DNA from: an uncultured Lachnospiraceae bacterium
GTDB lineage: Bacteria; Bacillota; Clostridia; Lachnospirales; Lachnospiraceae
Direction: 5' to 3'
Length of the DNA: 64,000 nucleotides
Assembly (NCBI GenBank): GCA_947176505.1
Contig: CAMWQW010000001.1
Coordinates: forward strand, 310,001 to 374,000
Below the pieces are notes generated by a model. The model worked only from the letters and a program-made list of their open reading frames with translations. It was not told the DNA's origin and ran no database searches. This document shows positions 6,084-21,333 of this stretch, one piece after another (the stretch's first letter is position 1; each line of letters starts with the position of its first letter). The translations under genes were made by a program, and so were the position numbers.

Positions 6084-7238
6084 TCATAATTCACACCTTG
6101 TCCCTATAGTTCTAAATGATTTACTTTGCAATACCGTCGCACACTGCTTAAGACCATCCACGATTTTCAGATGCTGCGGGCAGACGCGTTCGCACTGTTT
6201 ACAGCCTATACATTCTGATGCCAGACCACCGGAAACGGTTGCTTTCTGATAATCCGAAACTGCCTCCGCTATCTGTCCGTTTCCAAGTTGCTTATTCATG
6301 GCAGAGAATATCTCCGGAATCGGGATATGCTTCGGACATCCTTCCGTACAATAGTGACACGCGGTACAAGGGATTGTAGACGAATTTCCGAGAATCCTCT
6401 GCGCCTGCTGAATAGTCTTCTGCTCCTCCTCATTCAAAGGCTGAAATTTCTTCATGTAAGACAGGTTATCCTCCATTTGTGCAGTATTGGACATGCCCGA
6501 CAGTACGGTTATGATGCCGTCCAGCGACGCCACAAACCGGATTGCCCATGAAGCATAAGACATATCCGGATGATATTCATCAAACAGTCTTTTTACTGCG
6601 GCAGGAGGATTTGCAAGGTTTCCGCCTTTTACAGGTTCCATCACCACGATGGATTTCCCATGTTCCCTTGCCACCTCATAATTCGCCCTTGCCGCCACAG
6701 ACGGATTCTCCCAATCCGCATAGTTGATCTGCAGCTGCACAAAGTCCACTTCCGGATGTGCCCTGAGAAGCTGGTCTAACAGCTTCGGTCCTGCATGGAA
6801 GGAAAAGCCCATATGCTTCACCAGCCCTTTTGCCTTCTGCTCATTCACAAAATCCCAAATGTGGAATTTATCGTATTTTGTATAACCTCCTTCCATCATG
6901 GCATGCAGCAGGTAGTAATCAAAATATCCTGCCCCGGTACGTTCAAGGCTTGTGTAAAACTGGTTTTTCGCCGCTTTCTCAGTCGGAGCCAGCATCATTG
7001 CATTCAATTTTGTTGCCAGCGTATATGAATCGCGAGGATATCGGTCTACAAGAGCCTTCTTAATGGCGGCTTCAGATCCCATGTATACATATGCAGTATC
7101 AAAATATGTAAAACCAGCCTCCATGAACAGATCCACCATATGTTTTACCTGTTCAATGTCTGTATGCAGTCCTTTCTTCGGCAGACGCATCAATCCGAAT
7201 CCCAGTTTTGGTGTTTCTTTCCCAAAATAATCTGACAT
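6084..7238 (-). CDS. Aldo/keto reductase with C-terminal 2[4Fe-4S] domain
   Basis: 384 residues. Residues 1-280 form the aldo/keto reductase barrel, with catalytic Asp and Tyr in YFDTAYVYMG, Lys in LATKLN and His in YYLLHAM. The tail has two clustered-cysteine motifs, CTACHYCTEGCP and CIGCKQCERVCP, each able to hold a [4Fe-4S] cluster. Such proteins reduce carbonyls or accept electrons from ferredoxin-like partners; the substrate is unknown. AAGGAGGAAAAGGA precedes the ATG. It is the last gene of the long minus-strand redox cluster, 67 bases behind the metallo-hydrolase gene. Confidence 0.9.
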   Translation of the reverse strand: MSDYFGKETPKLGFGLMRLPKKGLHTDIEQVKHMVDLFMEAGFTYFDTAYVYMGSEAAIKKALVDRYPRDSYTLATKLNAMMLAPTEKAAKNQFYTSLERTGAGYFDYYLLHAMMEGGYTKYDKFHIWDFVNEQKAKGLVKHMGFSFHAGPKLLDQLLRAHPEVDFVQLQINYADWENPSVAARANYEVAREHGKSIVVMEPVKGGNLANPPAAVKRLFDEYHPDMSYASWAIRFVASLDGIITVLSGMSNTAQMEDNLSYMKKFQPLNEEEQKTIQQAQRILGNSSTIPCTACHYCTEGCPKHIPIPEIFSAMNKQLGNGQIAEAVSDYQKATVSGGLASECIGCKQCERVCPQHLKIVDGLKQCATVLQSKSFRTIGTRCEL

Positions 7239-7305
7239 TCCTTTTCCTCCTTGTCTACATTTCGTTTGATATTTTTGTGCTATTTACTTCCCATAAAATC
7301 TGTTT

Positions 7306-8064
7306 CTATTCTATTAAAATTTCTTCCCCATCCTCCACGATCAGGCGGTTCTCCACATCAAACTGCTCTGCCAGCTCCCGGTCAAATTGCCTTCCCGTAG
7401 TTGTTGTGGTCATATGATATGGGATGTTATGTTTCGCACCTACGAGACCAGCGCACTCTGCTGCTTCTTCCAGTCCCATGTTATATACGCCGTCACAGCA
7501 GAAAAATGCATAATCAATTTCCATTTCATCCATATGCACCATCTGCTCTGTTTTGGAAGTATCCCCTGTCACATAAACAGACTTACCGTTGGAAAACGTC
7601 AGTACATAACCGACACAGCCACTCACGTCATGGAGCGGATTATACCCTGCCTCCACTGCTTCCACCTTAACATAGCCAAGGTCAAAAATCTGGTGTTCCC
7701 CATTTTGTATCGCCTCTCTGTATGTAATAATCTGGCAGTCTTCGTTCCGGTTCTCAACCTTTTCAATCTGGCTGTGGTCAAAATGAGAATGTGTCACCAG
7801 TATCAGATCCGCTGAAAGTTCATAGGAGTCTCCTGCATAGGGATCAATATAGATCACCTTCCCCTCGTTTGTAACAATACGGATGCTCGCCTGCCCCTGA
7901 TAAAGCAGCGCTGCCGGTCCCGGCTCCGATGGAAAGTCTTCGGTTTCCGGAATTTCTACAGGTATGTTTTCCTCCTGTGTCATCATTTTTGTATCCGAAC
8001 AGCCGGTGAGAGAAATCAAAGACAACAGCCCTGCACTTATAAATGCCATCCATAATTTTCTCAT
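7306..8064 (-). CDS. Lipoprotein with metallo-beta-lactamase fold
   Basis: 252 residues. The N-terminus MRKLWMAFISAGLLSLISLT is followed by GC, a typical lipoprotein signal, so the mature protein is likely anchored outside the membrane. The rest is a metallo-beta-lactamase-fold hydrolase with HSHFDH (metal site), VTGDTSK and a C-terminal IPYHMTT histidine, resembling the UlaG-like/YtkL-like group. The ATG at 8064 overlaps the stop of the ferredoxin gene by four bases, which indicates translational coupling; the frame is open further upstream but that part only overlaps the ferredoxin gene. Substrate unknown. Confidence 0.85.
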   Translation of the reverse strand: MRKLWMAFISAGLLSLISLTGCSDTKMMTQEENIPVEIPETEDFPSEPGPAALLYQGQASIRIVTNEGKVIYIDPYAGDSYELSADLILVTHSHFDHSQIEKVENRNEDCQIITYREAIQNGEHQIFDLGYVKVEAVEAGYNPLHDVSGCVGYVLTFSNGKSVYVTGDTSKTEQMVHMDEMEIDYAFFCCDGVYNMGLEEAAECAGLVGAKHNIPYHMTTTTTGRQFDRELAEQFDVENRLIVEDGEEILIE

Positions 8065-8390
8065 CCTACAATCTCCTTCTGTCCACCATACGGAAACTTC
8101 ATAAGCCTCCCACACGACTGCATCATAGCAAGTTCCCGCATCAGCTCCTTTACATCCAGACCATTCGGACAATGTGAGGAACATGCGCCGCATTCAATAC
8201 AATCCACAGGCTTTCCGGACGACTTCATATTATTTAATTTTTCTAATATCTGCACATTTCCGGCCAAATATTCCCCGTAGATTTTTAATGCCTCTGAAAT
8301 ATTGATATGTGCCGGACAGCTTTTGCTACACTTTCCACATGCTGCACATGACCTTATCATAACTGCTGCTTCGCCTGCGTTATTTTCCAT
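8061..8390 (-). CDS. Small 2[4Fe-4S] ferredoxin-like protein
   Basis: 109 residues with two motifs, CAACGKCSKSCP (about residues 15-26) and CIECGACSSHCP (about 64-75), in the same layout as the C-terminal tails of the ferredoxin-fused aldo/keto reductases at 6084 and 18759. It is likely a cytoplasmic electron carrier. It follows a MATE remnant by 44 bases and is coupled to the metallo-hydrolase. It may be a detached reductase tail serving a neighbour such as the protein at 9313, whose own tail lacks cysteines. That pairing is an inference. Confidence 0.85.
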   Translation of the reverse strand: MENNAGEAAVMIRSCAACGKCSKSCPAHINISEALKIYGEYLAGNVQILEKLNNMKSSGKPVDCIECGACSSHCPNGLDVKELMRELAMMQSCGRLMKFPYGGQKEIVG

Positions 8391-8434
8391 TTTACTCCCA
8401 CCATATCTTTTTGTTCTCCATTTTCATGTTTATT

Positions 8435-9247
8435 TCAGTCTATTACCTGAAACTTAGTCCACTTCCGGCTACGGTAACGAACCTGAATCAATGCTGCTTT
8501 TACCATCCAGTCCCCAACCATTGCCAGACAGATCCCTATCACTTCGAGGTTCATCCACACACCAAACGCGATTGAGAAAATCACCCTGCACACACTGTGG
8601 ATCACAACCAGCAAAATAACCAGCTTTTTGGTATCATCCAATAAACTGTAAAGCGTCAGTACAAAAGGCGTTAAAATCATAATCAGCAAATTCCATGCTG
8701 CTGAACCCATATAAGTAATGCGCAGCAGTTTTTTATTGTAATAATCAGCTGCCTCGATATCCCACGCCTGAAGAACAAATATACCGATGGCATTGCCAAT
8801 GACATTGATTGCATTCATAACAATGGAAATGTTCATAATCGCTTTTGTCTTTCCCATACTGCGGAACAGTGCCGCCGCACTGTTGTAGACTGCCAGTGCC
8901 GGAAACGACAGTGCAGAAATTACCAGATAAGTGAGGGATGCCCTCATCACGTCTGGTTCCACCCGCCCAAATAAAAGAGATAAAATCTGAGAACGGAATA
9001 AAATGGAAATACCCATCAGAAATGCCGATATAAGGACTGTAATCATCAATAACTGGCTTGACGCAGTCACACCATTTTCTCTGTCATTCCTCCCGATATA
9101 CTGGCTTGCTACCACAGCTCCGCCGGATGCCACCGCACCAAACACAAAAATAAACACATTATTCAACTGGTTCACAAGAGATACTTCTGATACTGCTGCT
9201 TCCCCGGCATAGCTGACCATCAGCGTATCTGCAATTCCTAAGAGTCC
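8435..9247 (-). pseudogene. MATE family transporter remnant with deletions
   Basis: About 270 residues of MATE-like sequence against a usual 440-460. It starts mid-helix at GLLGIADTLMVSY, keeps SGGAVVASQYIGR and the first half up to IGIFVLQAW, then jumps to DYYNKKLLRITYMGSAAW from the second half, and later skips a further stretch before GVWMNLEVIG. The first helix and several central helices are missing while the frame stays open. Upstream residues of the open frame overlap the 3' end of the next reductase gene and do not resemble MATE. Judged non-functional. Confidence 0.7.
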
Positions 9248-9312
9248 ATCCTTCGCAAGTCTTCTATTGTCATGGATAACTGTTATATCAGGCGGACAAA
9301 CTTCCGCAAATA

Positions 9313-10464
9313 TTACATAACAAATGCATGCTCCACAAGGAAATTCCACGCTTTTTCCACCTGTTCTGTAATATCCTCTCCATGAAATGTGACCACCTCT
9401 TTCGGAAATTCCTGCTTTATATCCGTCACGCCATTGGCAAGTAGCTTATTTGCCAGATAATTCATTTCCCCGGAAAACAACGGATTCGGCTGCACCATTG
9501 CAGAGTTATAAGTATCAAGGATTGCTGCCACGGAGATACCGTGATAGGTCAGGCTTTCATATTCCGAAAAATCTCCAGTACCTTCCGGCCCCGTTGCTTT
9601 CTGCTCCTTTGCCATCGTCAGCAACATGTTCTTATCATCTTCTGTAAGCGGCACAAAATCTTTCAGATTCTTCACATTGTCCTTCACCTGTTCCAGTGTA
9701 GACATGCCGGAAAGTACCGCAATCACTTCTTCCATGCTGCCTGCAAACCGCAGCGCCCATACTGCAGGTGACATTTCCGGCTGGATGGAGCGGAGTTTCT
9801 TTTCAGCCGGCTCCGGTATCTGCGCCAGAACGCCTCCTTTCACTGGCTCCATGATAACTACCTTTTTCCCATGCTTGCGGATCACTTCATAGCATCTTCG
9901 GGATGCGATAAAATAGCTTTCCCAGTCAAAATAATTGATGATGATCTGAACGAACTCCACTTCCGGATGCTCCGTCAAGATCTGGTCAAGTACCTCCGGA
10001 GAATCATGGAAGGAAAATCCGATGTGTCTGATCTTCCCTTCTTCTTTCCATTTCTGTGCATGTTCAAACAAATGGCAGTTCTTTACCACACCGCCCTTAC
10101 CATCCAGTCCATTGTAAAACTTCGTGTTCAGGATATGAAGCAGATAATAATCTACATAGTCTGTTCCCAGATTCTTAAGCTGCTGTGCAAATATATCCTC
10201 CACCTGGTCTTCTGTCTGTATGTGAAAGGTGGGAAGCTTTGTGGCAATGGTAAACTGCTCTCTCGGATACCGTTCCACCACGCTCTTCCTTAACGCCTCC
10301 TCACTTTTTCCATTGTGATAGGCATAACTTGTATCGAAATATGTGAATTCGTTCCCAAGGAACTCATCCACCATCTGGTTCAGCTGTTCCAGATCAATGT
10401 CCTCCTGCACCCCGTCAATAACCGGGAGCCTCATAAAACCAAATCCTAATTTCCCCTGTGCCAT
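9313..10464 (-). CDS. Aldo/keto reductase of the ferredoxin-tailed group, but without cysteines
   Basis: 383 residues. The barrel is complete: YFDTSYAYHNG (Asp, Tyr), IATKLP (Lys), YYLLHIL (His), and IIINYFDWESYF typical of the ferredoxin-tailed clade. After about residue 290 the tail (GPEGTGDFSEYESLTYHGIS and onward) has no cysteine at all, where related proteins have two CxxCxxCxxxCP motifs. AAGGAGGT lies 7 bases before ATG 10464; an upstream start at 10500 would overlap the previous gene. It sits 17 bases behind another reductase gene, so the two are likely co-transcribed. Confidence 0.85.
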   Translation of the reverse strand: MAQGKLGFGFMRLPVIDGVQEDIDLEQLNQMVDEFLGNEFTYFDTSYAYHNGKSEEALRKSVVERYPREQFTIATKLPTFHIQTEDQVEDIFAQQLKNLGTDYVDYYLLHILNTKFYNGLDGKGGVVKNCHLFEHAQKWKEEGKIRHIGFSFHDSPEVLDQILTEHPEVEFVQIIINYFDWESYFIASRRCYEVIRKHGKKVVIMEPVKGGVLAQIPEPAEKKLRSIQPEMSPAVWALRFAGSMEEVIAVLSGMSTLEQVKDNVKNLKDFVPLTEDDKNMLLTMAKEQKATGPEGTGDFSEYESLTYHGISVAAILDTYNSAMVQPNPLFSGEMNYLANKLLANGVTDIKQEFPKEVVTFHGEDITEQVEKAWNFLVEHAFVM

Positions 10465-10481
10465 CTGTTCTACCTCCTTCT

Positions 10482-11336
10482 TTAATCCTCCGGCGCCCAT
10501 GCAGTAAACTGTGTTTCCTGCTGTTCCAATGGAACCGTAAAGAAACGCACGCTCTTGTCCACTGCCCTAATCCGCTCCATTTCCTCTCCTGTCAGCTCAA
10601 AGTCAAAAATGTCAAAATTATCCTTGATATGCTGTGGATTGGTAGATTTCGGGAAGATAATCGTACCTTCCTGAATATGCCAGCGTAGGATGATCTGAAC
10701 ATTAGTCTTTCCATACTTCTCTGCCAGTTCCGTAAATACTGGCTCATTTATCAGGTCTGCATCACCATGTCCGATAGGATACCATGCTTCAATTACTGTT
10801 CCATAAGGTGCCAGCCTCTTTTTTAATTCGTTCTGCTGGAAATAAGGGTGGCACTCCACCTGCAGCACTGCGGGCTTAACCGTTGCTGCCTCACAGATTT
10901 CCTCCAAACGCTCCGACTCAAAATTACTGAGTCCGATTGTTTTTACTTTTCCCTGTTCTACCGCCTTTTCGAGATCTTTCCATGCCCCCATATAATCACC
11001 TACCTGCTGATGTAAAAGAAGCAGGTCAATATAGCCAATGTCCAGACGCTCCAGCATCTTGTCAATGCCCTCCATCGTCTTACCTTCCCCGTATTCACTG
11101 GGCCACAATTTGGAAGTCACCCAGATTTCTTCACGGGGGATGCCGCTTTCACGCACAGCTTCGCCTACACTGCGTTCGTTCTGGTAAGCGTGGGCGGTAT
11201 CAATATGACGATACCCCATCTTCAAGGCATACATACACGCATTCTTTGTTGCATCCCCCGCAGGCACCATATATACGCCCATACCAAACTGCGGGATTTT
11301 TGTTCCATTATTCAAAGTAATATAAGTCTGACTCAT
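10482..11336 (-). CDS. Aldo/keto reductase (2,5-diketogluconate reductase-like)
   Basis: 284 residues, a single-domain reductase of the 2,5-diketo-D-gluconate/prostaglandin-F-synthase-like group. The tetrad is complete: Asp in HIDTAHAYQNE with Tyr, Lys in VTSKLWP, His in LLLLHQQ. The cofactor loop reads FPKSTNPQHIKDNF, keeping the NADP-binding Lys. GGAGG lies 8 bases before ATG 11336. Genes on both sides are also reductases. The physiological carbonyl substrate is unknown. Confidence 0.9.
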   Translation of the reverse strand: MSQTYITLNNGTKIPQFGMGVYMVPAGDATKNACMYALKMGYRHIDTAHAYQNERSVGEAVRESGIPREEIWVTSKLWPSEYGEGKTMEGIDKMLERLDIGYIDLLLLHQQVGDYMGAWKDLEKAVEQGKVKTIGLSNFESERLEEICEAATVKPAVLQVECHPYFQQNELKKRLAPYGTVIEAWYPIGHGDADLINEPVFTELAEKYGKTNVQIILRWHIQEGTIIFPKSTNPQHIKDNFDIFDFELTGEEMERIRAVDKSVRFFTVPLEQQETQFTAWAPED

Positions 11337-11429
11337 CTCTTTTTCCTCCATTTATTTATAAATTATACTCTTTTATACCCTTGTGTATATTCTATTGAAT
11401 TTTCCCAGACGATAATACATCTCAAAGGA

Positions 11430-12509
11430 TCAATACCCTGCAAAACGTTCATTCCGATCGAGTCCGGTCATCTGCTCCATTTCCTCATCCGTCAGTTCAA
11501 AGTCAAATATCTCAAAATTCTCCTGAATATGATCTTCATTACTGGAACCGGGAATTGCAATATTGCCCGCCTGCAGATGCCAGCGCAGGATGATCTGTGC
11601 CGAAGTCTTACCGTGAGCTTCTGCTATCCCTGAAATCACTTCATCATTAAACAATGTCTGCGTGTTGCCGCGTCCGCCAAGGGGAAACCACGACTCCATA
11701 ACGGTTCCGTACTGCTGCAGGTGCTCTTTCATATCCATACTCTGGTGATAGGGATGGGTTTCGTTCTGGAGCAATGCGGGTGTAATGGACGTTGCATGAA
11801 CCAGCCGGTCAAAATCTTCCGGCGTATAATAATTGGAAAGTCCAATGGAACGCAGCTTCCCTTCGCTGACTGCCTGCTCCATGGACCTGTATGCCTCCAC
11901 ATCATTGCTTGGCTGGGAATGGTGTAAAATCATCAGATCAATATAATCCAATCCCAATCTTTCGAGAGAAGCATTGATTGCCTCCGCACCGTTATCAAAA
12001 TCATCCGTCCACATTTTTGTGGTAACAAAGATTTCCTCTCTTGTCACAATTCCTTCATCAATCGCCCTCTGAATGCCACGTCCCACATCTGCTTCATTTC
12101 CATAAATTCTGGCAGTATCGATCAGGCGGTATCCATCCCGCAGTGCCCAATATACAGAATTTTCTGCCTCGCTGCCGGACAGACGGAAAGTTCCTATTCC
12201 AAGAATCGGCATCTCATAACCGCTGTTCAACATAACTGTCCCGTTTTCCAGATCGAACACCTGTCCCTGTGATTTTCCAGCGGCTTCTTGTTGTTCGCTG
12301 CCTATGTTTTTTTCCTCTGTAGTTTCTGTCTGGCTATTCTCCTGTATTTTATTTTCCATATCTGTACCGGCTGTCTGGCTGCTTGCCGGAGTTTCATTCC
12401 CCACAAGTTCATCCACACTATCCGGCTGTTCCTCCGTCGCACCACATGCAATCAGGAATAAACACATTACAAGGGAAAGAATAAAAGCTGCAATCTGTTT
12501 TGTTTTCAA
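11430..12509 (-). CDS. Lipoprotein-anchored aldo/keto reductase
   Basis: 359 residues. Residues 1-22 are a lipoprotein signal ending in the lipobox LIAC, followed by a linker of about 65 residues rich in Glu, Gln, Ser and Thr, then a full reductase barrel (LIDTARIYG, VTTKMW, LMILHHS: the Asp-Tyr-Lys-His tetrad is present). The cofactor loop reads IPGSSNEDHIQENF; the Lys and Arg that usually contact the NADPH 2'-phosphate are Gly and His here. Translation seems to start at TTG 12509, 9 bases after GGAGG. A reductase outside the membrane is unusual since NAD(P)H is cytoplasmic. Confidence 0.85.
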   Translation of the reverse strand: MKTKQIAAFILSLVMCLFLIACGATEEQPDSVDELVGNETPASSQTAGTDMENKIQENSQTETTEEKNIGSEQQEAAGKSQGQVFDLENGTVMLNSGYEMPILGIGTFRLSGSEAENSVYWALRDGYRLIDTARIYGNEADVGRGIQRAIDEGIVTREEIFVTTKMWTDDFDNGAEAINASLERLGLDYIDLMILHHSQPSNDVEAYRSMEQAVSEGKLRSIGLSNYYTPEDFDRLVHATSITPALLQNETHPYHQSMDMKEHLQQYGTVMESWFPLGGRGNTQTLFNDEVISGIAEAHGKTSAQIILRWHLQAGNIAIPGSSNEDHIQENFEIFDFELTDEEMEQMTGLDRNERFAGY

Positions 12510-12524
12510 TTAAATCGTCCTCCT

Positions 12525-13493
12525 TTAGCCACGTCCCATGCCGACAATGTCCATATGCGACAGTGCTTCCTCAATCTCCTGCATTTCATCTGGTGACAGT
12601 TCCACATTGACCGCCTCAAAGTTCTCCTTTACCCGATCCTTTTTCGTTGTCCCCGGAATCGGAACCAGATACGGTTTCTTTGTAATCTCCCATGCAAGGG
12701 CGATCTGCGCCGGAGTCGCCTGCTTCCTTTCTGCAAACTCTGTAATCAGCTCCATGAGATCACGATTATGGTCAATCCCTTCTTTCTTAAACAGGTTCAT
12801 ATCCGCCCGCCAGTCGCCTTCACGGTACTTTGTTCCGGCAGCATAGCGGTTGCTTAGATACCCTTTTGCAAGAGGACAGGCTGACACATAGGTAATTCCA
12901 AGTTCTTCGCAGAGCGGGAAATAGGTTCCCTCATCCTGTCTTGCCACAAAAGAATACATATTTTCAATTGCGGAAATGCTGCATACACTGTGCGCTCTCC
13001 GGATATATTCCTCCGGTGCAAAGGAAACGCCCCATGCCCGGATTTTCCCGGCTCTTATCAGCTCCGCCATTGTTTCCGCTACTTCTTCCGGCTCTGTTTT
13101 CGGATCAATGCGGTGCTGGTAGTATAGATCAATATAATCTGTTCCAAGCCTTTTCAAGGATGCGTCTACCTGCTGACGTATAGAATCACGGCTACTGTTC
13201 AAGGCATCCTCATTTCCTGTAAAGAAAGATTCATCCACAATACCGAATTTTGTGGCAATAACAGCTTCTTTACGGAAAGGAGCCACTGCCTTGCCGAGAT
13301 ACCGCTCATTTGCTTCGCCATAAACAGGGGCCGTATCGAAAAAAGTATACCCCACCTCATGGGCGTACCGCATAAGTGCTACCATGTCCTCTTCTGCTTC
13401 CACCACTCCATAGGCATGCGTCTGTCCCATACAGCCATATCCGATTGTCGTGATCTCAATCTCTGTCTGTCCAAGTTTTCTTGTCTTTTCCAT
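12525..13493 (-). CDS. Aldo/keto reductase (IolS/YghZ-like)
   Basis: 322 residues, of the longer reductase group that opens with RKLGQTEIEITTIGYGCMG. The tetrad is visible: Asp and Tyr in FFDTAPVYGEANERYLG, Lys in IATKFG, His in LYYQHRIDP. The cofactor part VPIPGTTKKDRVKENF is normal for this group. ATG 13493 lies 7 bases after AAAGGTG; an ATG at 13499 is too close. It is 15 bases upstream of the lipoprotein reductase, within the same transcript. Substrate unknown. Confidence 0.9.
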   Translation of the reverse strand: MEKTRKLGQTEIEITTIGYGCMGQTHAYGVVEAEEDMVALMRYAHEVGYTFFDTAPVYGEANERYLGKAVAPFRKEAVIATKFGIVDESFFTGNEDALNSSRDSIRQQVDASLKRLGTDYIDLYYQHRIDPKTEPEEVAETMAELIRAGKIRAWGVSFAPEEYIRRAHSVCSISAIENMYSFVARQDEGTYFPLCEELGITYVSACPLAKGYLSNRYAAGTKYREGDWRADMNLFKKEGIDHNRDLMELITEFAERKQATPAQIALAWEITKKPYLVPIPGTTKKDRVKENFEAVNVELSPDEMQEIEEALSHMDIVGMGRG

Positions 13494-13514
13494 TTTCATT
13501 CACCTTTCTTTGAT

Positions 13515-14222
13515 TTATGTTGTTATTCTTCTTTCAGTATGAACCTGCCTCTGATACAGGAATACGGCAAGTGAACCCCCTAACAATTCCACAACCGGCT
13601 CTACCAGCATCAATCCGTACATTGTCCACAGTACATTTGCAAGCATCATCAGCGGCAGGTCAAAAATCCCTTTTCGGAAAAAGGACAGCACAAAAGCCTG
13701 CTTCGCCCCGCCAATCCCCTGAAACACGGAAATCAGCATAAACCCTATATTGATAAACGGCAGTGAAATACACCTGAGACGTGTAAAGACTGCCCCATAT
13801 TCTATCGTGGCCACATCCTCAATAAAAAATCTGACCAACCACGGTGCGGATAATTCCGCCATTGCAAACATAAGCACAGAAATAACAAAACCAGAGACTA
13901 AGGAGAACCGTACAGCACTGTCCATCCGCTTTCGGTTGCCAGAAGCATAATTGTAAGCAATCAGCGGAAGCACACCGGAGGATAATCCCTGGACAATCTG
14001 GAAAGCGGCAGGAGTACCAACTAAAAATACCTCCGCCACATAAACGGTGACAGCCGCTACCTGCAAGGGATCTCCCGTCTGTCCGATAAACCATGTGTCA
14101 GCAAGATTATAGATAAGTACAATTAACTGACTGATCACTGTTGGAACTGCCAACGTAAGAACTGCTTTCCTGACAGGCATACTTTCAAATATATCTTTCT
14201 CTTTCAACTTAACGTCTGCCAT
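13515..14222 (-). CDS. Shortened MATE family protein (internal in-frame deletion)
   Basis: 235 residues instead of about 450. Residues 1-61 match the start of a MATE transporter (LAVPTVISQLIVLIYNLADT, then GQTGDPLQVAAVTV). From about residue 63 (near 14036) the sequence continues as the second half of the family (GLSSGVLPLIAYNYASGNRK and onward) to a normal end. Roughly 200 residues are missing with the frame intact. It could be a non-functional deletion product or a half-size membrane protein. It is packed 3 bases from the reductase upstream. Confidence 0.7.
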   Translation of the reverse strand: MADVKLKEKDIFESMPVRKAVLTLAVPTVISQLIVLIYNLADTWFIGQTGDPLQVAAVTVYVAEVFLVGTPAAFQIVQGLSSGVLPLIAYNYASGNRKRMDSAVRFSLVSGFVISVLMFAMAELSAPWLVRFFIEDVATIEYGAVFTRLRCISLPFINIGFMLISVFQGIGGAKQAFVLSFFRKGIFDLPLMMLANVLWTMYGLMLVEPVVELLGGSLAVFLYQRQVHTERRITT

Positions 14223-14225
14223 GAC

Positions 14226-15104
<879 letters not shown>

Positions 15105-15130
15105 TTAATCATTTCATCCTCAGTTGCGGC

Positions 15131-16507
15131 TCATCCTGCCTGCACAGTCTGCAGTGTCACAATTTTCCCTCGATATGTCCCTCTGACCATAATTGCTGCA
15201 ATCGCAAATCGGATAATTTCCATAGCAGGAAAAGCCAGCCAGACCAAAGTGGTACTTCCTGTCTGTGCAAAAAGCCATGCAAAGAGCAGCAAAAAAACCG
15301 CCTGTGAAATAGAAACGATAAAACTTGCTGTCCCCTGCCCCATTGCCTGCAAAAATCCTGACAATATCTGCGTTGTTGTGGTAAGCAGCAACGCCGCAGC
15401 AATGAACCGGAGTGCCTGAATCCCCATTTCCATCATTTCGCCCGATGCATTGAACATGGCAAGCAGCTGTGCCGGGAAAATAAGGAAAACCAATATCCCT
15501 GCCACTGCTATCACAGCATTCACACGCAGGCTTTTCCACAAGGTATCCATAATACGTTCTTTCTCTCTTGCACCATAGTTATATGCGATGATCGAAATTC
15601 CTGCACTACTCATACCGCTGGATGGCATAATAACAAAGCTCTGCAGGCGAATGTAAATCACATAAATTCCCGGAGCTAGCGGGGAAAGACCCATAAGGAT
15701 ATTGTTCATGCCTAAAGCGATAACTGCAACCAGACAGTTGCTCAAAGCCACCGGAATCCCTATTTTTACAATCTCTCCCACGATAGGTAAATCCGGTGTA
15801 AATACCTTTCTGCTGATGTGTACCTCATGGTTAAAGCGCAGATTTAAAAACAGGCCAGCCACTGCCGCTACCGCCTGCGCTGTTACCGTTGCAATCCCGG
15901 CACCGGTAATGCCCATTGCCGGAAGACCAAACCATCCGAAGATCATAACCGGATCTAAGATGATATTCACTACCGCCCCGACCAGCATCGGTATCATTGT
16001 TAGATCTGCCCTTCCAATAGCGGCCAGAAGCCTCTCCATCATAATCTGGTGGAATGCGGCAAAAGAACAGACACATAAAACGATACTGTATGAAATACAC
16101 ATATCACGGATTTCCTGAATATCTGTCTGTATCATATAAAAAGGTTCTATCACTGTAAGCCCAAGGACCGCAAACAAAACCATCACAATCCACAACAGTA
16201 CAAAACCGTTTCCTGCTGTTTTATTTACGCCGCTTCCATCTTTCTCACCCAGCTTTTTTGATAAAACGGAATTCACACCCACACCGATACCGGCTCCAAC
16301 ACCTACCACCAAATACTGCACCGGCATACAAAGTGAAATTGCCGTAAGCGCATTACCGCCAAGCTGTGCCACATATAAGCTGTCAACCAATCCATACAGC
16401 ACCTGCACAAGCATGGATATGATCAGCGGCATTGACATCTTTTTCAATAGCCTGCCTACCGGCAGACTTCCCATTTCATTGCTCTCCAATGTTTTTTCCT
16501 CCTTCAA
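15131..16507 (-). CDS. MATE family efflux transporter (full length)
   Basis: 458 residues with about 12 hydrophobic segments, the normal MATE size: MPLIISMLVQVLYGLVDSLY in helix 1, VNSVLSKKLGEKDG after helix 2, and GMSSAGISIIAYNYGAREK in the second half. The family exports organic cations or drug-like molecules using Na+ or H+ gradients. It is the only intact one of three MATE genes in this cluster. It follows the DUF4405 gene by 6 bases and so is probably expressed with it. Confidence 0.9.
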   Translation of the reverse strand: MKEEKTLESNEMGSLPVGRLLKKMSMPLIISMLVQVLYGLVDSLYVAQLGGNALTAISLCMPVQYLVVGVGAGIGVGVNSVLSKKLGEKDGSGVNKTAGNGFVLLWIVMVLFAVLGLTVIEPFYMIQTDIQEIRDMCISYSIVLCVCSFAAFHQIMMERLLAAIGRADLTMIPMLVGAVVNIILDPVMIFGWFGLPAMGITGAGIATVTAQAVAAVAGLFLNLRFNHEVHISRKVFTPDLPIVGEIVKIGIPVALSNCLVAVIALGMNNILMGLSPLAPGIYVIYIRLQSFVIMPSSGMSSAGISIIAYNYGAREKERIMDTLWKSLRVNAVIAVAGILVFLIFPAQLLAMFNASGEMMEMGIQALRFIAAALLLTTTTQILSGFLQAMGQGTASFIVSISQAVFLLLFAWLFAQTGSTTLVWLAFPAMEIIRFAIAAIMVRGTYRGKIVTLQTVQAG

Positions 16508-16513
16508 ACATAT

Positions 16514-17224
16514 TTACTTTTCATTTCTTTCCAAGATTTTTCGCTTAACCGTTCGCCGTTTTCCACTTCGGTTCAGACGGTTCATACAAACTGATACATA
16601 ATGCCCTATTACCGCAAACAGGCACATCACCGCAAAATATTCTGCAAAAAACAGCACTGCCGATTCCCCATAATCGAAAAATACAAATTGAACCTTTAAA
16701 AACATATAGGCAGCAAACCGTCTTTTTAGAAAGGCATAAACCCCATAGACGGCATAGGCCAAAAACACAAGTCCCAATATGTATTTGAAAGGAGCCTTTA
16801 TCTGTTTTTGCATTCTTTTTGCGGCAAGCATCCGATTCCAGTAAATTCCAAGGTGGAAAGATGCCAGTACAAATCCCCAATAGGATGAAGCCAGATGTGC
16901 AAGCCTTGCAAAAGCCATTCCCCCTTTTATATCCCATGGTGCATATCCTGACATGATCACACTGCTTACCGCCAATAAAGCCATCACAATCAGCAAGAGC
17001 ATATTTAAAGCTGTTCTTACTATACGTGGTGCCGTATAATGTCCTTTTATCATCGCCCGATACCAGCCTAAATTCAGCAGATGATGCGCGCAGAACAAAA
17101 GGAACATTGCCATGCCAAGCCGCTCGTGCATTTTTCCGCTGATAAGGGAATAGGCCATCAGGCCTGGCATCAACAGAATCATTGCAAAGTCCACGCAAAT
17201 CCGTACCTTTTGCTTTATCCCCAT
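16514..17224 (-). CDS. DUF4405-like membrane protein, possible haem-binding cytochrome
   Basis: 236 residues with about six hydrophobic segments. Paired histidines occur in or near membrane segments (LLFCAHHLLNLGW; LAHLASSYWGFVLASFHLGI), the pattern of the DUF4405 family, which resembles small membrane b-type cytochromes and occurs with extracytosolic flavin redox systems. It starts 6 bases after the lipoprotein flavodoxin gene. Together they suggest a route for electrons across the membrane to an outside flavodoxin; this is an inference. The C-terminus is highly basic (NRSGKRRTVKRKILERN). Confidence 0.7.
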   Translation of the reverse strand: MGIKQKVRICVDFAMILLMPGLMAYSLISGKMHERLGMAMFLLFCAHHLLNLGWYRAMIKGHYTAPRIVRTALNMLLLIVMALLAVSSVIMSGYAPWDIKGGMAFARLAHLASSYWGFVLASFHLGIYWNRMLAAKRMQKQIKAPFKYILGLVFLAYAVYGVYAFLKRRFAAYMFLKVQFVFFDYGESAVLFFAEYFAVMCLFAVIGHYVSVCMNRLNRSGKRRTVKRKILERNEK

Positions 17225-17230
17225 TGTCTT

Positions 17231-17926
17231 TTAATCTCCATCCGCAGGATTATAAAATCCCAAACCCTCCAGCCAGCTTACTACATCATCTTCCGCACGA
17301 TCCACATTAGAGCCGCGTATTGCCATGCCCTCCAGCAATTCCGCTTCTGGAACTAACTCCGCAATATCCCTCTCGCTGCGTCCAAGAGCGCTTCCCTCAT
17401 GGGTACAAAAAGGAATGACCGTCTTCCCTGCAAAATCATAGGATTCTAAAAATGTGAACATTGCCATGGGCATTGTGCCCCACCAGTTGGGGAAACCGAT
17501 AAATATGGTCTGATACCCGTCCATATTTTCTAAGGCGGCGGCAAGCTGCGGCCTCTCATCATTATCCTGCTCCTGCTTGGCAACCTCGATCAGATCATTA
17601 TATTCATCCGGATAAACCGTGACTGTTTCCACATGGAACAGCTCTCCTCCGGTATATTCAGCAATCTGACTTGCAATCGTCTCTGTGTTTCCTGTCTGTG
17701 AAAAATAAGCCACTAAAATATTGTTCTGCTCTGCTGCCTCTGACGTTACGGCATCTTCCGGTTCTTCAATACTGCTGTCTTGGATCTCTGTTCTTTCCTC
17801 CTGTTCAGGAGCGCTGCTGCCTTCCTCCGTATTTTGTGCCGTATTGCTTGGTTGCGGATTGCCGCCACAGGCTGTCAATGCAAAAAGCAGCGTGCCCGTC
17901 ATAATAAAAGAGATTATTTTCTTCAA
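17231..17926 (-). CDS. Flavodoxin-domain lipoprotein
   Basis: 231 residues. TTG 17926 is the start, 8 bases after GGAGG; it gives a signal peptide KKIISFIMTGTLLFALTACG with a lipobox. A Glu/Ser-rich linker of about 50 residues leads to a flavodoxin domain with the FMN phosphate loop YFSQTGNTETIA, FIGFPNWWGTMPM and FCTHEGSALGRSE. The protein is thus likely held on the outer face of the membrane. A good promoter (18000-18028) lies just upstream. With DUF4405 next door, an extracytoplasmic electron carrier is a reasonable guess. Confidence 0.85.
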   Translation of the reverse strand: MKKIISFIMTGTLLFALTACGGNPQPSNTAQNTEEGSSAPEQEERTEIQDSSIEEPEDAVTSEAAEQNNILVAYFSQTGNTETIASQIAEYTGGELFHVETVTVYPDEYNDLIEVAKQEQDNDERPQLAAALENMDGYQTIFIGFPNWWGTMPMAMFTFLESYDFAGKTVIPFCTHEGSALGRSERDIAELVPEAELLEGMAIRGSNVDRAEDDVVSWLEGLGFYNPADGD

Positions 17927-17999
17927 ATGATGCTTCCTCCCGTCTGTAAAATCGTATAGATACATTCTCTTTTCAGGATATTCGTCCATCCACAATCCT

Positions 18000-18028
18000 A
18001 TTATATTTTTCTCTGTCACTGCACTCAA
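18000..18028 (-). promoter_or_regulatory. Predicted promoter of the lipoprotein-flavodoxin operon
   Basis: Minus strand TTGAGT (plus 18023-18028), 17 bases, TATAAT (plus 18000-18005). It would give a leader of about 65 bases before the TTG start at 17926. The 41-bp shared element at 18046-18086 lies just upstream, a usual place for an activator site. Confidence 0.6.
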
Positions 18029-18045
18029 CATCACATCACTTCAGA

Positions 18046-18086
18046 ATGCGGTTTATGCCACACATTCTGCAAAAATGTGGTCTAAC
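18046..18086 (-). promoter_or_regulatory. Shared 41-bp upstream element, copy 1
   Basis: 30 of 41 positions match the element at 21140-21180 in the same orientation, including an unbroken CCACATTTTTGC and TAAACC. Both contain the dyad CACA-N11-TGTG. The spacing resembles LysR-type sites, but the regulator is unknown; the adjacent TetR protein is another candidate. Confidence 0.5.
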
Positions 18087-18210
18087 TCAGTTCTTCTATA
18101 ATATCCGGCACTCCAACTATCCCATCTTAATAACAAAAACAGCACCTCCGAAGAAATGCTGCTCTGTTACATTCCGTCTTTCATTTTATGCTGTCAGACA
18201 TTCAGGAAGG

Positions 18211-18711
18211 TTAAATCCATTTTCCAATGGCACCTCTTGCGTCATCTACAAAACTGCCCTGAATGGCAAGTCCCTTTGTCACCATCGCACTTTTGCAGAC
18301 ACTGCGGATTTTACCCTCTGTCCCGCTAAGACCGCTCCCCTCATGGGTACAGAAAGGATGGATCGTCTTACCGCTCCAATCAAATTTTTCCAAAAAGGTA
18401 TATACCGCCATCGGCATGTCTCCCCAATAGTTCGGATATCCCAGATATATTTCATCATACCCGTCAAGACTATCTGGCATGGCAATCAACTCCGGTCTTG
18501 CCTTTGCCTGCAGATCCTTTTTTGCCTGTTCAATACAAGTATTATAATCAGCGGCATATGGAATCTTCTGCTCAATCTGAAACAAATCCGCTCCCGTCAT
18601 CTCGGAAATCATCTCTGCCAACTTTTCCGTATTGCCTACCGTCACATAACGGCAGCCTCCGCTGAAATAGTTTTCATCCGCCCTTGAATAAAACGCTACT
18701 AATTTTGCCAT
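18211..18711 (-). CDS. Flavodoxin family protein (cytoplasmic)
   Basis: 166 residues, a single flavodoxin domain without a signal peptide: KLVAFYSRADENYFSGG at the FMN phosphate loop (modified from the usual SxTGNT, with GNTEKLAEMI a little later), IYLGYPNYWGDMPMAVYTFL and FCTHEGSGLSGTE. It closely resembles the domain of the lipoprotein at 17231 and is probably a paralogue. The reductase upstream (18759-19867) lies 47 bases away. It may carry electrons for the ferredoxin-tailed reductases. Confidence 0.85.
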   Translation of the reverse strand: MAKLVAFYSRADENYFSGGCRYVTVGNTEKLAEMISEMTGADLFQIEQKIPYAADYNTCIEQAKKDLQAKARPELIAMPDSLDGYDEIYLGYPNYWGDMPMAVYTFLEKFDWSGKTIHPFCTHEGSGLSGTEGKIRSVCKSAMVTKGLAIQGSFVDDARGAIGKWI

Positions 18712-18758
18712 GACATACTTCTCCTTCTACATTTTTTCACACGTTACTCCATATAAAA

Positions 18759-19867
18759 TTACATCTGGAATGCCTCTGCCACCAGTTTTAAGTTTTCCAC
18801 AATAGGTAAATGCTGCGGGCAGTGGTTCTCGCACTGTTTACACCCGATACAGTCTTCCGGTTTCCCGTGAGTTGCCGTCAGATTCCCATATGTAGTGGCA
18901 AGTCCTGCCAACAGCCCAAACTGTTTCTGGTTATTATACAGTGAGAAATATTCCGGGATGGCAATTTTCTTCGGACAGCCGGAAGTACAATAGCGGCAGG
19001 CAGTACACGGAATGGCAATGCTGTCACCTATAATCTGAACGGTCTTTGCTATGGTCTCCCTCTCCCCTTCAGTCAAAGGATGGAAATCCTTCATATAGCT
19101 GATATTGTCCTCTACCTGTTCCAGATCACTCATGCCGCTTAAGACCACCATTACCTGATCTAGTGAGGCTGCAAAACGGATTCCCCATGAAGCGTTCCCT
19201 GCATCCGGATTGGCTTCTTTCAGAATATTTGCGGCAACTTCTGGCAGACGCACTAAAGCGCCACCCTTCAACGGCTCTATAACCGTTACCTGCACGCCAT
19301 GCTTTACGCAGACTTCATAGCATTTACGGGACTGTACGCTTTCATTCTCCCAGTCTATGTAATTGAGCTGCAGCTGCACTAGTTCTGTTTCCGGGTGGTC
19401 AGTCAAGATACGGTCCAGCATATCCGCATCATCATGGTAGGAAAAACCAATGTGCCGGATCTTTCCCTCTGCCTTCTTCTGCGCCATGAACGCAAAGCCC
19501 TTCTGTTCCTGTACCGCCCCATATACGGACCGCCCATCGCGTGAAGGAAATAATAATCAAAGTAATCCACCTGACACCGCTCAAGCTGCTCGTTGAATAT
19601 TCTTTCATAGTCTTCTGCACATTTCGTCATAAATACCGGCATCTTAGTGGTGATGGTAAAGGAATCTCTAGGATAGCGTTTTGCCACCAGCTCGCCAAAG
19701 GCTTTCTCACTGTTTCCTCCGTGATAGACATATGCCGTATCGAAATAAGTAAATCCCGCCTCCATGTATCTGTCTATCATAGCTCTTGTCTTTTCCATGT
19801 CCACACTTGACCAGTCCTCCGAATTCGTCTGCGGCAGACGCATCAGTCCAAAACCTAATTTCTTCAT
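18759..19867 (-). pseudogene. Ferredoxin-tailed aldo/keto reductase with a single frameshift
   Basis: Two overlapping frames together make a normal reductase of about 370 residues. The first (start ATG 19867) runs from MKKLGFGLMRLPQ through YFDTAYVYHGG, ITTKMP and YYFLHAMGGPYMG; the second continues in another frame with GFAFMAQKKAEGKIRHIGFS to the tail motifs CTACRYCTSGCP and CIGCKQCENHCP. The shift lies at a run of four C on the plus strand (19517-19520), where five would restore the frame. This could be a true mutation, phase variation at a G-run, or a sequencing error. It is the second gene of the cluster. Confidence 0.8.
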
Positions 19868-19995
19868 TTCAATATACACTCCTTTCCAAATCTGGATGAG
19901 GAATGCCCGTATTTTGGGCATTCTTCGGTGTGAAGCTTTAGAAGTTCTTGGCGAAGCAGCCTCTGCTGTAAGTCTTAGAACTTCTCTTCACTCTA
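19868..19995 (-). repeat. Intercistronic repeat element, copy B
   Basis: This spacer fills the gap between two reductase genes, from the stop codon at 19996 to the ribosome site of the next gene. It shares with 98-226 the AAATCTG word and the GAATGCCC/GGGCATTC hairpin (19901-19924). A second stem, GAAGTTCT with AGAACTTC enclosing GCAG-cct-CTGC, is well formed here. It resembles an RNA structure within a transcript. Function unknown. Confidence 0.6.
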
Positions 19996-20967
19996 TTATC
20001 TGCTAAATCCTCTGTGTCCATATACTCTGCATTTGTTCAGTGCTTCTTCCAGCGAACGGAACTCTTCTGTGGTCAGTTCCACTTTAGAGGCATCCAGATT
20101 TTCAATGATGCGCTCCTTGTTCTTTGATCCCGGAATCGGCACCACATTGGGATATTTATGCAGCATCCATGCCAGCGAAATTTGGGCGCTTGTGGCATTT
20201 TTCATATCCGCATATTCTTTCAAAAGGTCAATGATTGGCTGGTTGCCGGCTATGTTTGCTTTTTGAAGCTGCGGCACCCAGTTTCTGACATCATCATTTG
20301 ACTCAAACTTTGTTTCCGTTGTAATCTTTCCTGACAAAAGCCCGCTGGCTATGGGGGAAAAGGGAACCACTCCAATATCATGCTCCATACAATAAGGAAT
20401 CACTGCTTTCTCCATATCCCGCTCCACCATAGAGTAGATATTCTGTACCGCACTAAGCGGTGTGACATTCTGTGCCCTGTCAATGACGTCCACATCTACC
20501 TGCGATAGTCCCCACCCCCGGATCAGACCATCCTCCATCAGCAGCCCCATTGCTTCAGCAACATCCTCTATCTTTACGCCGCCGCTTGTCCTGTGAAGGT
20601 AATAAAGGTCAACCATATCCGTCCGAAGCCGATCCATAGAATCCTCCAAATGCCTACGGACTGCCCTGTATACGGAAGCCTCCGCCCGAACCTCCGATCT
20701 GTCCAGAAACAGCTTGGTTGCCAGTACCACATCTTTCCGCACACCTTTCAGTGCTTTTCCCACGATACGTTCATTATGCCCGATGCCTGCAAGATTCGGG
20801 CTGTAAATCTCTGCAGTATCAAACAGCGTACAGCCATGCCTGTATGCGTTCTGAATTGCTTCTATGCTGTATTGTTCCGGCGGAATTTTTCCATAACCGT
20901 GTGAAAATGCCATACAGCCCATGCCCACTTCCGATACTGTTAAATCTCCTAACTGTCTTGTTTTCAT
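19996..20967 (-). CDS. Aldo/keto reductase
   Basis: 323 residues of the larger reductase group (TRQLGDLTVSEVGMGCMAFS at the N-terminus). Asp and Tyr lie in LFDTAEIYSP, Lys in LATKLFLD, His in YYLHRTSGG, and the cofactor region is VPIPGSKNKERIIENLD. It is the first gene of the minus-strand redox cluster and is divergent from the TetR gene at 21334. A 367-bp intergenic region separates the two and holds the shared 41-bp element. Substrate unknown. Confidence 0.9.
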   Translation of the reverse strand: MKTRQLGDLTVSEVGMGCMAFSHGYGKIPPEQYSIEAIQNAYRHGCTLFDTAEIYSPNLAGIGHNERIVGKALKGVRKDVVLATKLFLDRSEVRAEASVYRAVRRHLEDSMDRLRTDMVDLYYLHRTSGGVKIEDVAEAMGLLMEDGLIRGWGLSQVDVDVIDRAQNVTPLSAVQNIYSMVERDMEKAVIPYCMEHDIGVVPFSPIASGLLSGKITTETKFESNDDVRNWVPQLQKANIAGNQPIIDLLKEYADMKNATSAQISLAWMLHKYPNVVPIPGSKNKERIIENLDASKVELTTEEFRSLEEALNKCRVYGHRGFSR

Positions 20968-21180: not shown

Positions 21181-21333
21181 TTCGTTTTTGCTCTATAAAT
21201 TCAGATAATACTCCCATGTTGATTTTTTGACCTGTCTGTATTATGCTACAAGAGGGTAAATCCCTATAATAAATTTTGAAAACTTATAATGCAGCTCCTC
21301 TCTATGCGGTATAGCTGTTTAGGAGATACGACT

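Follow-up and report, generated by a model that had tools for sequence, protein, structure and literature searches.

The window analysed, a stretch of 64,000 nucleotides from a gut bacterium that is probably one of the Lachnospiraceae, going by the nearest named loci, contains a cluster of redox genes that can be read, with roughly even confidence, as a TetR-controlled island with two branches: a cytosolic branch of aldo/keto reductases (AKRs), and an extracytoplasmic branch in which electrons would pass from a DUF4405 membrane protein to a surface flavodoxin (Fld1) and from there to a surface AKR (AKR4). Export of the surface branch is well supported by signals predicted in the protein sequences. 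DUF4405, the flavodoxin and AKR4 are likely to be an extracytoplasmic electron-transfer set, for which we infer an electron path, a cofactor and substrates. This arrangement suggests that chemicals are reduced at the cell surface without the usual cell-internal fuel.

Gene content and conservation of the island

Eight AKR genes (PF00248) lie within 6084-20967, every one on the minus strand, as are all of the flavodoxin, ferredoxin, DUF4405, hydrolase and MATE genes of the island. The AKRs belong to at least three subfamilies: ferredoxin-fused or related (AKR1, AKR2 and AKR7), DkgA-like (AKR3, AKR4 and AKR6) and YdjG-like (AKR5 and AKR8), the last two labels being best NCBIfam matches below cutoff. 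The Pfam and NCBIfam matches thus bear out both the number of AKRs and the diversity of subfamilies claimed in an earlier, sequence-only reading. The island holds 9 of the 18 PF00248 matches in its own genome (4.17 Mb), AKR7 being counted twice. Its genes and the neighbouring regulator are as follows.

6084..7238, minus strand: AKR1, with a C-terminal 4Fe-4S dicluster domain (PF00248 and Fer4)
7306..8064, minus strand: metallo-beta-lactamase-fold (MBL) hydrolase, predicted lipoprotein with lipobox LTGC (PF13483; sub-cutoff PRK00685)
8061..8390, minus strand: 2[4Fe-4S]-type (dicluster) ferredoxin of 109 aa (Fer4 families)
8435..9349, minus strand: MATE1, with an internal deletion (comparison with relatives)
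9313..10500, minus strand: AKR2, related to AKR7, without a 4Fe-4S match (PF00248 only; its DNA matches AKR7 of L006)
10482..11351, minus strand: AKR3, DkgA-like, without signal, K kept and R changed to H (PF00248, residue alignment)
11430..12509, minus strand: AKR4, predicted surface lipoprotein AKR (PF00248; lipobox LIAC, TTG start, Shine-Dalgarno AAGGAGGA)
12525..13499, minus strand: AKR5, YdjG-like (PF00248)
13515..14222, minus strand: MATE2, with an internal deletion (comparison with relatives)
14226..15080, minus strand: AKR6, DkgA-like, without signal, K and R kept (PF00248, residue alignment)
15131..16507, minus strand: MATE3, full length, the sole intact MATE gene here
16514..17224, minus strand: DUF4405 membrane protein, putative haem-b conduit (PF14358)
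17231..17926, minus strand: Fld1, predicted lipoprotein Flavodoxin_4 with lipobox LTAC and a short FMN loop (PF12682)
18211..18711, minus strand: Fld2, Flavodoxin_4 with a long loop between beta1 and alpha1, apparently without a signal peptide (Pfam)
18759..19921, minus strand: AKR7, with a 4Fe-4S domain, split by a frameshift (Pfam)
19996..20967, minus strand: AKR8, YdjG-like, first gene of unit 1 (PF00248)
21289..21903, plus strand: divergent TetR-family regulator (PF00440 and TetR_C_8)

The companions that had been read alongside the AKRs (two flavodoxins, a ferredoxin, a DUF4405 protein, a hydrolase and three MATE genes) are all present, but two of the MATE genes are internally deleted. 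MATE1 encodes 304 aa and MATE2 235 aa, against 452-499 aa (L001, L006, L012, L061 and L092) and 454-470 aa (L001, L004, L008 and L026), respectively, in the longest frames of related loci; L002, L003, L005 and L010 likewise have no more than pieces of MATE1 or MATE2. Because two of the three genes are broken, the case once made for export via MATE proteins is weak, and MATE export was rejected as the core of the island. AKR7 is split into two ORFs (18759-19487 and 19403-19921), and its counterparts in L001, L006 and L089 are single open frames of 370-379 aa. The hydrolase ORF as listed was too long; a better start, with a Shine-Dalgarno site, is at 8064. A flavodiiron-type pairing of hydrolase and flavodoxin was rejected on account of the UPF0173/PRK00685-type match of the hydrolase, with its HxHxDH motif. 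That the hydrolase and the DkgA-like AKRs might act on lactones or vitamin C was a guess and was set aside.

Many genes of the island are common to L001, L006 and G001, the last of which also has the flank. Uniqueness to this strain with no conserved neighbours, the outcome named beforehand as contrary to the sequence-only reading, is ruled out by these shared genes. The gene set is kept in relatives, often in shuffled order. Near-identical loci from metagenome-assembled genomes (L002/L003 and L073/L074) are counted separately in some of the tallies given here.

Transcription units and regulation

The genes are closely packed on one strand, as previously described, and their gaps are short or overlapping except between Fld2 and Fld1, where an intergenic gap of about 284 bases contains a terminator-like hairpin and an operator-like dyad. 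The island is therefore likely to comprise two transcription units, with the following elements.

21147..21179, minus strand: operator-like dyad ahead of unit 1, in the TetR/AKR8 intergenic region
18136..18165, minus strand: terminator-like hairpin after Fld2, of 13 pairs with a T-rich tail, from the consensus scan only
18053..18085, minus strand: operator-like dyad ahead of unit 2 (Fld1 onward), with the same sequence in L001, L002, L003 and L089

A stretch like the Fld2 hairpin is visible in L001 and L089. The terminator consensus scan gave a weak excess (20 matches, against 13.6 in shuffles) and the promoter consensus scan gave none (34 against 36.1). The 33-bp dyad, a pattern built from the window's own two copies and then searched elsewhere, has two sites in the window against 0.13 matches expected; at up to 2 mismatches these are the only sites in the 4.17-Mb genome, and 19 sites were found across 13 fetched loci of relatives. 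These counts are all for 2 or 3 mismatches, matches at up to 4 mismatches being non-specific (50 in one shuffled copy of all loci).

The TetR gene that had been placed at the head of the cluster is confirmed as a divergent gene, and a divergent TetR gene heads the island in L001, L006 and L089 also. Its product may bind the dyad before both units. With a shared dyad and a TetR gene at its head, the island looks like a regulated unit, and to that extent the earlier suggestion of a dedicated pathway survives, without its MATE export part; this analysis gave no indication that the substrates are carbonyls, quinones or dietary compounds.

Such a unit might be an ordinary carbonyl-stress island, in which TetR-run, NAD(P)H-dependent reductases handle the intracellular detoxification of aldehydes or quinones alongside MATE efflux, and the lipoprotein AKR is minor or nearly idle. 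We consider this rather unlikely, although six complete AKRs without signal, the TetR gene, the one full-length MATE gene and the NADPH residues retained in AKR6 would all suit it. So would the recurring neighbours in relatives, LysR (42 of 95 loci), FMN reductase (27), alpha/beta hydrolase (25) and Fe-alcohol dehydrogenase (15), counted as protein clusters whose representatives match the family, which resemble the yqhD-dkgA aldehyde operon of E. coli. Carbonyl stress leaves unexplained, however, the surface lipoproteins, the flavodoxin-AKR fusions and the link to DUF4405 that are described below, and two of the three MATE genes are broken.

Export signals and the AKR clade predicted to be exported

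AKR4, Fld1 and the MBL hydrolase are predicted to be surface lipoproteins, since each has a lipobox at its start and a Shine-Dalgarno site ahead of it, the lipobox and signal calls here being made with our own regular expressions and inspection by eye rather than with SignalP. Fld1 has the mark of exported Flavodoxin_4 proteins, a lipobox (LTAC) ahead of the domain. A lipobox is present in 8 of 12 MBL-like ORFs and, in its strict form, in 54 of 83 AKR4-like ORFs, though not in all. The export devices of AKR4 relatives are varied, including lipoboxes, SLH (L018), Cu_amine_oxidN1 (L043, L037 and L105) and Big_2 (L117), with weak, sub-cutoff dockerin matches in L074 and L080; Tat-like signals occur in two loci (L101 and L050), the remainder being mostly Sec-type lipoprotein signals. 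Spurious signal peptides were considered and set aside, since the same flavodoxin-AKR pair stands behind export devices of unrelated kinds. The 38 order-wide matches gave 30 loci. In these, each of the 13 AKR domains that score above 400 against the AKR4-type profile, two of them from the window itself, carries a lipobox or signal.

A tree of 143 AKR domains places 95 of them in one exported clade (SH-aLRT 99), in which 59 are exported, 28 are fused to Flavodoxin_4 and 8 have no recognised signal; the tree is of a quick kind, with SH-aLRT support only and a midpoint root, identical domains having been removed first. The hosts are mostly gut Clostridia, and AKR4 falls inside the clade (row L096_1501).

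Linkage of flavodoxin, AKR and DUF4405

The fusion label switched at least six times across the AKR tree. There are 21 flavodoxin-AKR ORFs in L001-L080, one of them partial (L015), and Pfam scanning confirmed the fusion in 11 of 11 scanned. Among named strains, fusions occur in Clostridium methylpentosum DSM 5476 and Lachnospiraceae CE91-St56, and the corresponding genes of Parablautia intestinalis D8-82 are separate. For the C. methylpentosum fusion (L055), AlphaFold gave a model with a mean pLDDT of 89.5, whose barrel matches DkgA-type AKRs and whose pTM of 0.65 leaves the mutual orientation of the domains unfixed. AKR4 matches PF00248, and the (beta/alpha)8 barrel is that modelled for this homologue.

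In 147 genomes of the order, at least 16 of 38 AKR4-like matches (cytosolic ones included) are within 5 kb of a Flavodoxin_4 domain, against at least 0.48 expected, and 7 of those 16 pairs, among the matches listed, are fusions. DUF4405 is within 5 kb of Flavodoxin_4 in at least 9 of 17 cases against at least 0.14 expected, or at least 7 of 15 when the window's own genome is left out. The gene order AKR-flavodoxin-DUF4405 is found in L056 and L066, and a DUF4405-Flavodoxin_4 fusion once, in L087, where an extra hydrophobic segment implies that the flavodoxin part would face outside. We counted the flavodoxin fusions and the flavodoxin/DUF4405 linkage in favour of a surface electron branch.

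Other observations were counted against it. DUF4405 is within 5 kb of just 12 of the 73 exported AKRs in L001-L080, and of 3 of the 38 AKR4-like matches in the order sample (147 genomes). No flavodoxin lies within 5 kb on the strand for 28 of the 73, some of which are at contig ends and others of which have 10 kb on each side; in one subclade this holds for 9 of 10 counted rows. Thus flavodoxin need not partner every exported AKR. Finally, Fld1 and AKR4 are not adjacent in the window, being about 4.7 kb apart.

The form of the Flavodoxin_4 flavinylation motif that we assumed for the loop test is found in L081, L087, L045, L048, L022 and L014, and analysis of the beta1-alpha1 loop detected none in Fld1 or Fld2 of the window. 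The island has no apbE gene; the genome gives just one ApbE match, on contig C12. With both the motif and the apbE tests negative, ApbE flavinylation was rejected as the class of the island. The nearest solved structure to Fld1 is 3klb. The genome has a second set of DUF4405 and exported-type Flavodoxin_4, this one with a flavinylation-like motif.

Four histidines of DUF4405 (H32, H46, H109 and H123) are kept in 18 of 18 aligned rows, and a simple hydropathy scan of the window protein gives about four clear hydrophobic segments. The DUF4405 family binds haem b and has a six-span structure, according to the available text of PMC11334425, and the window protein is a putative haem-b conduit.

Cofactor and proposed electron path

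The catalytic tetrad (D, Y, K and H) is kept in AKR4. The equivalents of K262 and R268, which hold the 2'-phosphate of NADPH in DkgA-type AKRs, are G and H in AKR4, so the NADPH grip is missing; among lipobox-bearing rows, the window's included, K is replaced by G in 54 of 55 and R by H in 55 of 55. The same G and H occur in a cytosolic sister group, and are thus not a consequence of export. In 87 exported rows the letters of a PLGGRGxT loop are 98-100% conserved, and its last G has no counterpart in 39 cytosolic rows, a comparison that left out 15 of 54 rows without signal. With the usual NADPH grip gone, an exported clade that is fused to flavodoxins must draw its reducing power from another source.

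That source could be the gut lumen: the exported AKR would be a plain NADH-dependent reductase using luminal nicotinamide, and the flavodoxin and DUF4405 would perform other surface reductions, as neighbours by shared regulation only. Conservation of the nicotinamide-contacting residues (S, N, Q and W) is compatible with an ordinary NADH-dependent enzyme, and loss of the K262/R268 equivalents would suit NADH over NADPH; the 28 of 73 exported AKRs without nearby flavodoxin fit also. Repeated fusion to flavodoxin, in one polypeptide bearing an export signal, argues against luminal NADH, which we regard as improbable. A further reading is that the exported AKR domain has lost its turnover and now acts as a module for binding or sensing in surface redox chemistry driven by flavodoxin. 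Its changed cofactor grip and new PLGGRGxT loop might hint at this, but it is very hard to credit with the tetrad intact in 83 of 83 AKR4-like rows (55 of 55 with a lipobox, AKR4 among them, and 28 of 28 others).

According to the two-branch reading, AKR1, AKR2, AKR3, AKR5, AKR6 and AKR8, which have no signal, would reduce carbonyl compounds in the cytosol in the ordinary manner. DUF4405, with haem b, would move electrons through the membrane to FMN in the lipoprotein Fld1, and the lipoprotein AKR4 would use them on a carbonyl substrate outside the cell. Between Fld1 and AKR4 the electrons would most probably go by way of a nicotinamide that stays in the AKR and is reduced again there by FMNH2; in a bolder alternative, the flavin would transfer hydride directly. 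We tentatively propose, while thinking it somewhat more apt to be wrong than right, that the surface AKR is independent of free NAD(P)H, driven by flavodoxin and fed by DUF4405 through one of these two routes, and that gut Clostridia thereby reduce dietary or host carbonyls extracellularly.

Comparison with known systems

AKRs are generally known as NAD(P)H enzymes of the cytosol. The exported clade shares with DkgA-type (2,5-diketo-D-gluconate reductase) AKRs (1vp5, 1mzr and 3d3f) the fold, as seen in the L055 model, the tetrad and the nicotinamide-side residues, but differs from them in its export signals, missing 2'-phosphate grip, PLGGRGxT loop and frequent flavodoxin fusion. The yqhD-dkgA operon of E. 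coli is an aldehyde-response operon with the Fe-alcohol dehydrogenase YqhD and the AraC-type regulator YqhC. The window resembles it in having DkgA-like AKRs under a local regulator, but has TetR and exported parts instead, and neither an Fe-alcohol dehydrogenase nor an AraC-type regulator is among the 20 window proteins scanned (4640 to 23314). The glucose-fructose oxidoreductase of Zymomonas is an exported reductase whose nicotinamide cofactor stays bound; it offers a precedent for a bound cofactor, although its fold is different and its export is by Tat, whereas the window has the AKR fold and the signals are mostly of the Sec-type lipoprotein kind. Among the literature titles and beginnings of abstracts listed, none described an AKR that is exported or one paired with a flavodoxin.

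The closest counterpart is extracytosolic electron transfer by DUF4405 and Flavodoxin_4 (Huang et al. 2024, PMC11334425), which, as far as its available text goes, partly anticipates the electron-transfer set of the window: here also a DUF4405 protein with four histidines adjoins an exported-type Flavodoxin_4. The main text of that paper does not mention 'keto reductase' or 'lipoprotein'. The window differs from the system in its available description in that Fld1 has no flavinylation-like motif and in having a surface AKR as candidate terminal reductase. Should the electron path prove correct, it would supply the DUF4405/flavodoxin systems of gut Firmicutes with a terminal reductase, by which gut bacteria could reduce carbonyl-bearing drugs, dietary compounds or aldehydes of the host without taking them up.

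Gene content and state of genes

Nine of the 18 PF00248 matches in the source genome (4.17 Mb, 62 contigs) lie in the island, with the frameshifted AKR7 counted twice. The features considered here are:

6084-20967, minus strand: redox island with eight PF00248 genes (aldo/keto reductases AKR1 to AKR8), two Flavodoxin_4 genes (Fld1, Fld2), a dicluster ferredoxin, a DUF4405 protein, a metallo-beta-lactamase-fold (MBL) hydrolase and three MATE genes
18053-18085: 33-bp dyad, copy in the Fld2-Fld1 gap
18136-18165: terminator-like hairpin in the Fld2-Fld1 gap
21147-21179: second copy of the dyad, between TetR and AKR8
21289-21903: TetR gene, divergent from the island genes

The gene count and close packing described by the sequence-only reading stand, but the state of three genes escaped it: besides AKR7, MATE1 (8435-9349) and MATE2 (13515-14222) carry internal deletions, MATE3 being full length. 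Counterparts of MATE1 and MATE2 are full-length open frames in several relatives and only pieces in others. A PLP-dependent decarboxylase frame at 3513-4487, adjoined by LysR and LysE-type exporter genes, covers just positions 143-374 of the 375 of PF00282 and is thus probably truncated at its start. The 414-aa protein of 4640-5884 has an HTH_3 domain at its N terminus, and its long C-terminal part matches no Pfam family.

Conservation and gene order in relatives

One genome collection was scanned with AKR4, and 80 loci (L001-L080) were kept of 171 relatives, the nearest named loci belonging to bacterium C-53 and Lachnospiraceae MAGs. The TetR gene and many island genes recur in window order in L001 and L006, with an extra AKR-like gene after TetR in both; between its Fld1 and AKR6, L001 has neither DUF4405 nor MATE3. 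The same families occur in other orders in L007-L012, L023 and L026. In G001, a genome of the same genus, the island head adjoins the same flank as in the window: its contig is about 80% identical to window 26386-41650 and continues into a TetR gene and island genes. Among 31 related genomes, G001 (71%) has the sole full-length match above 50% beyond the source genome, followed by G007 (50%) and G017 (48%); the distribution is thus patchy.

The stretch 22274-25949 is low in GC (2-kb bins from 22 to 26 kb have 0.33-0.35, most other bins 0.39-0.48). It carries a RhuM-family gene and matches nSTAND3 weakly, below cut-off. The stretch has the look of a recent insertion next to the island, because G001 has only about 1 kb at that place, between the stretch matching the window from 26386 onward and its TetR gene.

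Two likely units and a candidate TetR site

The only long gap of the island lies between Fld2 and Fld1, and probably separates unit 1, headed by AKR8, from unit 2. The dyad pattern TTAnnCCACA-N11-TGTGnGGnnTAA was built from the window's own two copies. With up to three mismatches it occurs in the window only at those copies (4 matches over both strands, 0.13 expected), a number reached by 0 of 100 shuffles; with up to two, the whole source genome has the same two places only, and a reversed control pattern gave one match. The fetched loci have 19 sites in 13 loci (up to two mismatches), ten pair-shuffled copies giving 0 or 1. The dyad stands immediately ahead of Fld1 in L001, L002 and L089, and of AKR3 in L001, L004 and L005. 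Judged from its position, TetR is a candidate binder of the dyad.

Predicted surface lipoproteins and the exported AKR clade

AKR4, Fld1 and the MBL hydrolase are predicted to be exported as surface lipoproteins, since a Shine-Dalgarno sequence precedes each of them and a lipobox signal stands at its start. A strict lipobox pattern was found in 54 of 83 AKR4-like ORFs, 20 of 33 Fld1-like ORFs and 8 of 12 MBL-like ones; the Fld2-like ORFs gave 1 of 10 and the DUF4405 ORFs 0 of 14, and the pattern was present in no AKR3-like (0/15), AKR5-like (0/16), AKR6-like (0/12) or AKR8-like (0/11) ORF. Signals of the exported AKRs at L101 1492-3111 and L050 9854-10804 resemble twin-arginine signals as well as lipoboxes; these would permit export of folded, cofactor-bearing enzyme.

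A tree of 143 AKR domains places AKR4, by sequence, in one clade of 95 rows (SH-aLRT 99). Of these, 59 are exported and 28 are fused to flavodoxin, while no signal was recognised in 8; two exported rows, L120 and L121, lie outside the clade. The rows are mostly from Clostridia, and the few MAG rows labelled otherwise (e.g. Synergistaceae, Methanomassiliicoccus, Anaerobiospirillum, Alistipes) may be misbinned. The tetrad is intact in all 55 lipobox-bearing AKR4-like rows (AKR4 counted), and nicotinamide-side residues are conserved in 53-55 of them. At the K and R positions, which we take to hold the NADPH 2'-phosphate, G replaces K in 54 of these rows and H replaces R in 55; the AKR6 group retains K in 12/12 and R in 11/12. 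This change does not follow from export, since a cytosolic sister group has G and H too. Exported rows share a PLGGRGxT loop (G, G, R, G and T each in 98-100% of 87 rows), whose last G has no counterpart in three cytosolic groups (12, 13 and 14 rows).

Flavodoxin-AKR fusions

Flavodoxin_4 is joined to an exported-clade AKR in 21 ORFs of L001-L080, one of them partial (L015). Pfam confirmed all 11 scanned, including L042 (a complete genome) and L055 (Clostridium methylpentosum DSM 5476). Parts borne by the fusions include lipoboxes, SLH domains (L018) and Cu_amine_oxidN1 (L043, L037); an Ig-like Big_2 domain is present on the L117 fusion and just below cut-off in L008, and a sub-cutoff dockerin-like stretch in L074 and L080. 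In L074 a cyclophilin-like domain also separates the flavodoxin from the AKR. The AKR tree requires 16 changes of the fusion label, of which starred branches force at least 6, gains and losses being indistinguishable. An AlphaFold model of the L055 fusion (mean pLDDT 89.5) does not fix how the two domains face each other, since pTM is 0.65. The best 50 Foldseek rows with this model were all AKR-type structures, DkgA-type first, none spanning more than about half of it by TM-score.

Linkage of DUF4405 and flavodoxin

PMC11334425 describes DUF4405 proteins as binding haem b and extracytosolic Flavodoxin_4 proteins as capable of being flavinylated. Four His are conserved in 18/18 DUF4405 rows, the window's counted. 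Across 147 genomes of the order, at least 9 of 17 DUF4405 cases have Flavodoxin_4 no more than 5 kb away (at least 0.14 expected; at least 7/15 with the source genome left out), as have at least 16 of 38 AKR4-like genes (at least 0.48 expected; at least 14/33 likewise), 7 of the 16 being fusions. In L056 and L066, AKR, flavodoxin and DUF4405 follow one another compactly in this order, with lipoboxes on AKR and flavodoxin. In L087, DUF4405 and flavodoxin are fused, and the protein also has a flavinylation-like motif and an extra hydrophobic segment. Directly after this fusion, L087 172-1254 encodes a protein with two cyclophilin-like (PF18050) stretches; these systems may include the domain as another component, because it also lies inside the L074 fusion. 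A second set in the source genome (L081, contig C4, 6380-8825) has DUF4405 and two lipoprotein flavodoxins, one with the flavinylation-like motif DASTSAS. The genome's only ApbE match is on contig C12, away from this set.

Interpretation and comparison with known systems

We give even odds to the reading that TetR controls the island and that it reduces carbonyls in two compartments, with an outer branch of DUF4405, Fld1 and AKR4. The sequence itself shows AKR4's place in the clade, the fusions and the gene linkage, and it predicts export; from these we infer a cofactor, substrates and an electron route that would run from DUF4405 to Fld1 to AKR4. Several observations tell against this reading. 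Fld1 and AKR4 are not adjacent in the window. The 73 exported AKRs of L001-L080 comprise 21 fused ones, 24 with a flavodoxin no more than 5 kb away and 28 with none in that range, some at contig ends and others with 10 kb on both sides; 9 of 10 counted rows of one subclade belong to these 28. DUF4405 is near only 12 of the 73. A draw across the phylum gave a match to the L055 fusion at E <=1e-75 in 7 of 398 genomes, the window's own counted, and in 4 of the 7 the match ran along both domains. No flavinylation-like motif was found in the window's Fld1, in contrast to the signs of flavinylation reported in PMC11334425 for extracytosolic flavodoxins.

Among the matches listed, a literature search found no published description of an exported flavodoxin-AKR pair, and the main texts of two flavinylation papers (PMC11334425 among them) do not contain the term 'keto reductase'. 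As separate parts, AKR, DUF4405 and Flavodoxin_4 are already known.
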